A stretch of 64,000 bases of DNA, from positions 26,089,069 through 26,153,068 of the forward strand of contig OZ038463.1 in the NCBI GenBank assembly GCA_964036295.1, given 5' to 3'. Position numbers and translations under genes: made by a program. Origin of the DNA: Plumapathes pennacea (taxonomy: Eukaryota; Cnidaria; Anthozoa; Antipatharia; Myriopathidae). The notes below the pieces were generated by a model. That model did no database searches and was not told the DNA's origin. It saw only the letters and a list, made by a program, of their open reading frames with translations. Every line of letters starts with the position of its first letter. The stretch's first letter is position 1. Positions 48,096 to 48,839 of this stretch are shown piece after piece.

Positions 48096-48839
48096 ATGGC
48101 AAACATATGCCTTCATGATTGGCAGACTATACCAGACCCGCCAATGACCCGGCAACAAAAACTGATGCGAATAAGCGCATGGAACAATCAAGAAAAACTC
48201 GTTAAAAGACGGGGTTACGGTCCTATTCAAGCTGGCATTGACTGGCAAGTTTTTCGAGACGAAGCCGTCGTGGTTATTTGCTGCAAAACCTGCGAGCATG
48301 TTTTGAGCGTGAAAGGTTTACGCGATCAACACTGGGCCATGTCCACACACGATCGTTATAACTGTCAGCCGTGGTACTACACCTCTACCATGCCTCTAAA
48401 AAAGTAGGTTTTTATTTTACCATTTTTCAATTCATTGTTTTCATCTACTTACATTATTTTTATTTTTATTTTTTGTTTCAGTTCCGTACAACTTACAGGT
48501 GATTGGCAGTGGGGTCCACACTGCTATTGTGCGATTCAAAACATCCATTGCACAAAATGCAAGCACTACGTAGGCTACAACGTTCGCATGCCTTGTTTGG
48601 AATGTCTTGAAACCGCGCACAGCGGCAATCAATGGATCTTTCACCCCGACTCAGTCGTAGCCATTCCCCGTACCCGACGCGACTCTACCACTCTAACTCA
48701 CGGGCTACACCATTGCATCGTCGATTCAGAACAAGAAACCGAGGACATCAAGCGTGACATCCAAGCACAATTAAAGGCACGCCGCGACTCTGCCACTCTC
48801 GTTGGACGGCTAAGACAACTAAAAGAAACCGAAGTTTAA
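48096..48839 (+). CDS. FAM72-family homologue, 221 aa, two exons
   Basis: Exon 1 is 48096-48403 and exon 2 is 48482-48839, with intron 48404-48481 (GTAGGT...TTTCAG) splitting an Asn codon. The zinc-binding plan of animal FAM72 is preserved: CCKTC (Cys62, 63, 66) followed by VLS..G; TG at 108-109; CYC (117, 119); CTKC (126, 129) followed by VGY; PCLEC (141, 144); and FH at 156-157, then a DST-like segment. An N-terminal extension of about 55 residues and a charged C-tail are extra. Cellular FAM72A is known to bind the uracil-DNA glycosylase UNG2 and lower its level. That this protein does so is inference. Confidence 0.82.

Follow-up and report, generated by a model that had tools for sequence, protein, structure and literature searches.

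FAM72 is an animal gene with a known role in shutting down the repair of uracil in DNA, and the capture of host genes by viruses is well known. Antagonists of uracil-DNA glycosylase (UNG) include phage Ugi and p56 and HIV-1 Vpr. We analyzed a 64,000-nucleotide stretch of the genome of the anthozoan Plumapathes pennacea (GCA_964036295.1, contig OZ038463.1, positions 26,089,069 to 26,153,068 of the forward strand), hereafter called the window, and found in it a Polinton that carries a spliced FAM72 homologue. Its product keeps the FAM72 core, is under selection, and is remodelled at both known functional ends; we regard it as a new, remodelled viral offshoot of an established family, housed in an established type of element. 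No FAM72 in Polintons or other viruses was found in the literature searched, in agreement with the initial annotation of this DNA, which knew of no described Polinton FAM72.

Compared with cellular FAM72 (PF14976; human FAM72A-D), the viral gene is alike in its profile match, its core cysteines, the Mis18/Yippee fold of a viral relative, and the codon and phase of intron 1. It differs in forming a long-branched clade of its own, in its N-terminal extension, in the loss of F101 and, in the window's lineage, of W125, in an EDIKRDI segment that replaces the C-terminal tail, and in lacking host introns 2 and 3. The element itself resembles Polinton/Maverick elements and adintoviruses in its family B DNA polymerase (PolB), its retrovirus-like (rve) integrase with a chromodomain-like end, its terminal repeats, and its 6-bp duplication; matches to an A32 ATPase and a C5 protease are weak and below the Pfam cut-offs. 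The FAM72 and Fic accessory genes set it apart. Neither PMC11071296 nor PMC11071308 has the words FAM72, yippee, or Fic in its main text.

Structure and conservation of the Polinton FAM72 gene

The gene and the ends of its element lie in the window as follows (a slash in a codon marks the splice junction).

48096..48403, + strand: exon 1 of the FAM72 homologue; ATG at 48096, 102 codons plus 2 nt, viral N-terminal extension and then the first CxxC (CKTC)
48404..48481, + strand: intron of the FAM72 homologue; GTAGGT...TTTCAG, 78 nt, phase 2, split codon AA/T
48482..48839, + strand: exon 2 of the FAM72 homologue; CxC, CxxC, VGY, PCxxC, WIFH, then the viral EDIKRDI tail, TAA stop at 48837-48839
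21002..49911, no strand assigned: Polinton element, 28.9 kb between the terminal repeats AGTAGTATGGGGTCC... and ...GGACCCCATACTACT
20996..21001, no strand assigned: left target site duplication GACGTG, 6 bp, a perfect match to the right one
49912..49917, no strand assigned: right target site duplication GACGTG, 6 bp, a perfect match to the left one

The initial annotation had proposed a two-exon, spliced gene inside intact Polinton ends, and this description holds: the ATG, the GT-AG intron, and the TAA were located, and terminal repeats and GACGTG duplications are present on both sides. The predicted product has 221 residues (counted from both exons), compared with about 150 in the complete cellular FAM72s of our comparison set. 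In a Pfam scan, for which each exon was queried separately and unjoined, exon 2 matched PF14976 (YPEH2ZP, i.e., FAM72) with an E value of 4.6e-14 (53.2 bits; cut-off, 27), and exon 1 gave a below-cut-off match to the N-terminal region of PF14976 (E 0.0017, 19 bits). The runner-up families for exon 2, DUF2797 (E 0.059) and Yippee-Mis18 (E 0.26), were far behind, and a zinc ribbon of another family, the outcome that would have spoken against a FAM72 assignment, was rejected.

Exon 2 gave dN/dS values of 0.19, 0.35, and 0.36 between the window and the Polinton copies L013, L029, and L016, respectively (genomic copies are described below). Selection between lineages, as seen in these values, further excludes chance. 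Values against the near copies L014, L015, and L024 were 0.5-0.8, and these copies may be decaying; dS was saturated against L009 and L012. Selection on exon 1 was weaker, with dN/dS of 0.29-0.66 in eight comparisons with the window.

Across 8 viral and 23 cellular rows, C14, C16, C23, C26, C38, C41, G31, G48, and R63 were invariant, with 24-38% identity between viral and cellular proteins over exon 2. Of the cysteine pattern that had been ascribed to the product, all cysteines are kept, but the accompanying FH, like further FAM72 positions, is missing from some copies. A Mis18/Yippee fold was found in a model of the intronless relative L009, which is another chain than the window's, and the N-terminal extension and the EDIKRDI segment are helices in the model of a relative. 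Mis18/Yippee and cereblon CULT domains are remote in sequence (Mis18 chains, hmmsearch E ~0.01). At the cellular C terminus, Arg is the last residue in 21/21 rows, with the ending CxR in 15 and CR in 5 more. None of the other 25 copies or the window ends in this tail; the viral proteins run past it to varied ends, and seven of the invariant columns in a 7-row viral alignment lie in the EDIKRDI region.

Searches for relatives elsewhere gave little. Neither FAM72 exon matched PHROGs, and the host FAM72 sequence had 0 matches among solved structures. In IMG/VR, no relative was confirmed with the window exon 2, Fic, ATPase, PolB, or a coral FAM72 as queries, a result from which near-source records may be excluded. 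In a BFVD fold search, 0 of the 590 listed matches reached E <= 0.001, which does not show absence. In the protein database, alignment A1 retrieved 64 proteins, several of them fragments and none with the viral tail by eye; alignment A2, in which the exon 1 rows were misplaced by MAFFT, retrieved none, and alignment A3 retrieved none, not even cellular FAM72s, and is hence weak evidence.

Copies, intron, and ancestry

The survey of copies covers one genome (290,015,204 bases in 24 contigs), in which some loci are broken and the counts from searches are lower bounds. With all 48 candidates scored, 29 matches to PF14976 were obtained: 3 are exons of one host gene on contig C4, and 26, the window included and all over the cut-off, are Polinton copies. 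In each of the 25 other copies, Fic is matched on the same strand behind FAM72, and one or more additional genes of the window's element lie in the fetched stretch. Exon 1 is matched in 23 of the 25; of these, 22 have the donor site and L009 is uninterrupted. The right terminus is kept in 20/25, in 18 of these to the last base, with a 40-nt flank that differs each time. Since the terminus is common and the flanks all differ, these copies are separate insertions.

A genome search for the packaging ATPase gave 57 matches, which merged into 46 loci, 20 with FAM72 within 20 kb and 26 without. ATPase identity to the window among the latter was 43-58% in 19 and 61-98% in 7; two FAM72-bearing loci were equally distant (57% and 50%). 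In an ATPase tree of 11 rows (7 drawn from the 20 FAM72-bearing loci and 4 from the 26 others; L018 was half filled and L013 long), the FAM72-bearing rows separated at 100/98, and FAM72 looks like a property of one Polinton lineage. Fic also lies near ATPases without FAM72 (C2:11332605, C5:13123378, C1:12142013, C3:17284510, and C2:26163523) and is therefore a wider accessory than FAM72. By ATPase identity to the window, L009 and L010 (64-65%) rank ahead of L012 (56%; its ATPase is L039) and L013 (47%), but in FAM72 and Fic they are further from the window than L012 or L013. These opposite orders suggest that Polintons have exchanged the right-end module.

The intron links the viral gene to the cellular one. 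By our own annotation, the host gene on C4 has four exons, and its intron 1 (84 nt) splits GA/T just before AIQLVG; the Polinton intron lies at the same codon position and phase, just before SVQL, TVQL, or AVEA. It is present in 23/26 Polinton copies, 21 checked by script and two, L013 (with a longer intron) and the window, by eye. The 21 script-checked introns are 65-79 nt long and in phase 2, with a GTAAG or GTAGG donor; they split AA/T (8 copies), GA/T (5), GA/C (5), AA/C (1), GG/T (1), and AG/T (1). A mammalian FAM72A isoform, P0010, has a different start joined to AVDF at the place of intron 1, as expected if this boundary is old. In L009 and L010, FAM72 is uninterrupted and intronless. 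A hidden intron in L009 was not borne out, the frame being open throughout; at the junction its DNA reads CACAG/TGCT, and its exon 1 part is two residues shorter than the window's by count. We read this as probable loss of the intron rather than its never having been present. L033, in which no exon 1 match was found, is counted in neither group.

Independent insertion of an intron at this codon and phase is possible but unlikely, and the shared position thus supports capture from genomic DNA, as the initial annotation had argued from the retained intron; partly spliced RNA is a possible source instead. As evidence that the gene was taken from genomic DNA or from unspliced RNA, the split codon that both genes share is unusually direct.

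In the main FAM72 tree (55 rows, with 25/26 viral copies; L033, whose match is fragmented, was left out), the viral rows formed one clade (100/99), whose branch is 1.4 changes per column long and which stands apart from the FAM72s of animals and fungi. The host FAM72 grouped with Nematostella and Actinia at 97/89, as fits an anthozoan genome. This tree rests on few columns; four of its cellular rows end in long branches, and the long L009/L010 branch meets cellular rows. A second tree was restricted to 7 viral rows and omitted the cellular rows P0032, P0035, P0036, and P0052; it retained the viral clade (100/99) and the host-anemone group (93/72). The viral stem branch was 1.2-1.4. These trees support a single origin of the viral gene. 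AU tests rejected neither a placement of the virus with anthozoans (p 0.213) nor one with fungi (p 0.152). The data are therefore compatible with both affiliations of the donor. The host capture suggested in the initial annotation thus holds for an intron-bearing cellular gene and a viral clade of its own, but not as a recent private event, the gene belonging to one lineage with 26 copies found. Taken together, the results fit one old event in which a cellular FAM72 with introns was captured.

Possible function of the captured protein

The viral product would act inside the cell as a binding adaptor and would keep its contact with the host's uracil-repair/CTLH network. It would most likely occupy UNG, alone or together with RPA at replication forks, and thereby spare uracil-containing viral DNA from cutting. 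We would expect it to block by binding instead of sending UNG to CTLH to be degraded, since it lacks the free C-terminal tail by which FAM72A docks on Muskelin. Such a protein would serve the same end as Ugi, p56, and Vpr, a likeness of purpose only; the candidate antagonist here is a captured host regulator. We hold action on the uracil-repair/CTLH axis, by binding UNG without ligase routing, as a tentative reading that falls short of probable, since most copies have lost the Trp, which speaks against a UNG site left as it was. A fuller account is somewhat more doubtful: a DNA virus lineage would have made FAM72 a stand-alone inhibitor, keeping the UNG-binding Yippee core and dropping the ligase tail, with the intron recording unspliced capture, and this would be the first viral FAM72 as far as our searches reach.

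Several points weigh against UNG binding. Human position 125 is Trp in 21/21 cellular rows reaching it and His in 7/8 viral rows, including the window, with L009 as the viral row that keeps Trp; F101 of the human protein is changed in 8/8 viral rows. The literature searched offered no described viral FAM72 as a comparator. Human FAM72B-D are at least 98% identical to FAM72A (PMC11377751), and yet they are reported to lack robust UNG2 binding (PMC12223117); PMC11377751 does report UNG binding for FAM72B. A partner can thus hardly be read from homology at 24-38% identity. In the captured copy, the regions known for an effect on uracil repair are mostly altered, and UNG neutralisation is possible on mixed residue evidence.

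The loss of the UNG-contact Trp in 7/8 viral rows would also suit a retargeted E3 adaptor, in which the Yippee core docks Muskelin/CTLH, the new N- and C-terminal segments bring another host protein, e.g., an antiviral factor, and Fic serves as a second effector. PMC12871134 indicates that the Yippee-like domain also matters for Muskelin contact, and PMC12223117 that MKLN1 is bound by all four human paralogues and UNG2 robustly by FAM72A only; the invariant columns of the EDIKRDI region fit as well. Because the cellular tail ends none of the copies, we consider this reading rather unlikely. The second main rival is a dominant-negative protein, which a kept core with changed effector features could mark. 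By forming dimers with host FAM72 (or with Mis18/Ypel-type proteins), it would put this partner out of action, so that uracil repair would rise rather than fall or functions at centromeres or forks would change. PMC11377751 describes RPA binding by FAM72 as well as its homo- and heterodimers, but exon 2 identity to cellular FAM72 is low and the dimer surface is putative, and we regard this as improbable. A similarly small likelihood attaches to a role inside the virus, as a zinc-fold protein for viral DNA replication or virion assembly without a host FAM72-type target. The N-terminal extension and the tail are indeed viral features, but FAM72 adjoins Fic near the right end, and 26/46 Polinton ATPase loci, some of which may be broken copies, have no FAM72 within 20 kb; the role is disfavoured because other Polintons do without the gene. 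Finally, an ordinary host FAM72 misassembled (the alternative raised in the initial annotation) or retroposed into a Polinton without a viral role, for which homology alone speaks, is rejected as next to impossible by the 26 Polinton copies (25 further places with Polinton genes), the target duplication, the right terminus common to 20/25 other copies with different flanks, the 100/99 viral clade, and the separate, intron-containing host gene on C4.

If UNG binding is true, it would give Polintons a concrete host-interaction function and provide a natural experiment that separates the UNG-binding surface of FAM72 from its ligase-docking tail. If it is false, the gene would show to what other targets the Yippee/CULT scaffold can be turned.

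As a separate observation on UNG in this genome, intronless UNG-type open frames are clustered at G000:C7:16097806-16108834 (L041, L042, and L043), with three glycosylase domains in an 886-aa frame, two in a 575-aa frame, and one in a 298-aa frame. Their motif is GQDPAPQPG (GQDPAPEPG in the last frame), the usual UNG motif being GQDPYH. These tandem multi-UNG proteins look unusual; ordinary UNG matches lie, in pieces, on C12. No viral genes were recognised near the cluster in the pieces read, which leave gaps.

The remainder of the element and its surroundings

The element has the attributes of a Polinton, namely, PolB and an rve integrase, terminal inverted repeats, and a 6-bp target duplication. 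Its other features in the window are as follows.

29451..31975, + strand: family B DNA polymerase, here in two overlapping frames (29451-30764 and 30470-31975; PF03175 E 3.2e-16 and 5.5e-17)
32243..33379, + strand: retrovirus-like (rve) integrase with a chromodomain-like C-terminal end (PF00665 E 6.3e-14; the Chromo match, at E 6.8e-4, is below cut-off)
40320..40886, + strand: weak match to an adenovirus-type (C5) cysteine protease (PF00770 E 0.0037, below cut-off)
40887..41657, + strand: weak match to an A32-type packaging ATPase (PF04665 E 4.1e-4, below cut-off), in a frame adjoining the protease
47986..48025, no strand assigned: candidate regulatory site upstream of the FAM72 gene, inverted pair CCCCACGTGGGAT / ATCCCACGTGGGG, by eye
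48046..48053, + strand: candidate promoter, TATA-like box TATAAATA some 45 nt upstream of the FAM72 ATG, by eye
48857..49618, + strand: Fic-domain gene (PF02661 E 2.9e-16), HPFGDGNGR intact by eye

The FAM72 stop lies about 1.1 kb from the right end of the Polinton, and the first in-frame ATG of Fic follows it by 17 nt in the window and in 9/25 other copies, a near-dicistronic layout. No double-jelly-roll major capsid gene was identified in sequence-profile searches: of the unassigned frames queried, none exceeded a Pfam cut-off, and two long ones were without a PHROGs match. A weak GIY-YIG frame at 45753-46463 (E 0.008, below cut-off) was matched in 19/25 other FAM72-bearing loci.

Outside the studied element, a second Polinton-type PolB lies at 9722-11943 on the - strand (PF03175 E 1.2e-18), and a frame upstream of it matches Endonuclease_7 (E 9.8e-6). 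Long inverted repeats (18324-19813 and 55354-57173; complementarity 73-98%, in pieces of up to 348 nt) lie on either side of the Polinton beyond its own ends and are perhaps those of an older element that received the Polinton insertion.
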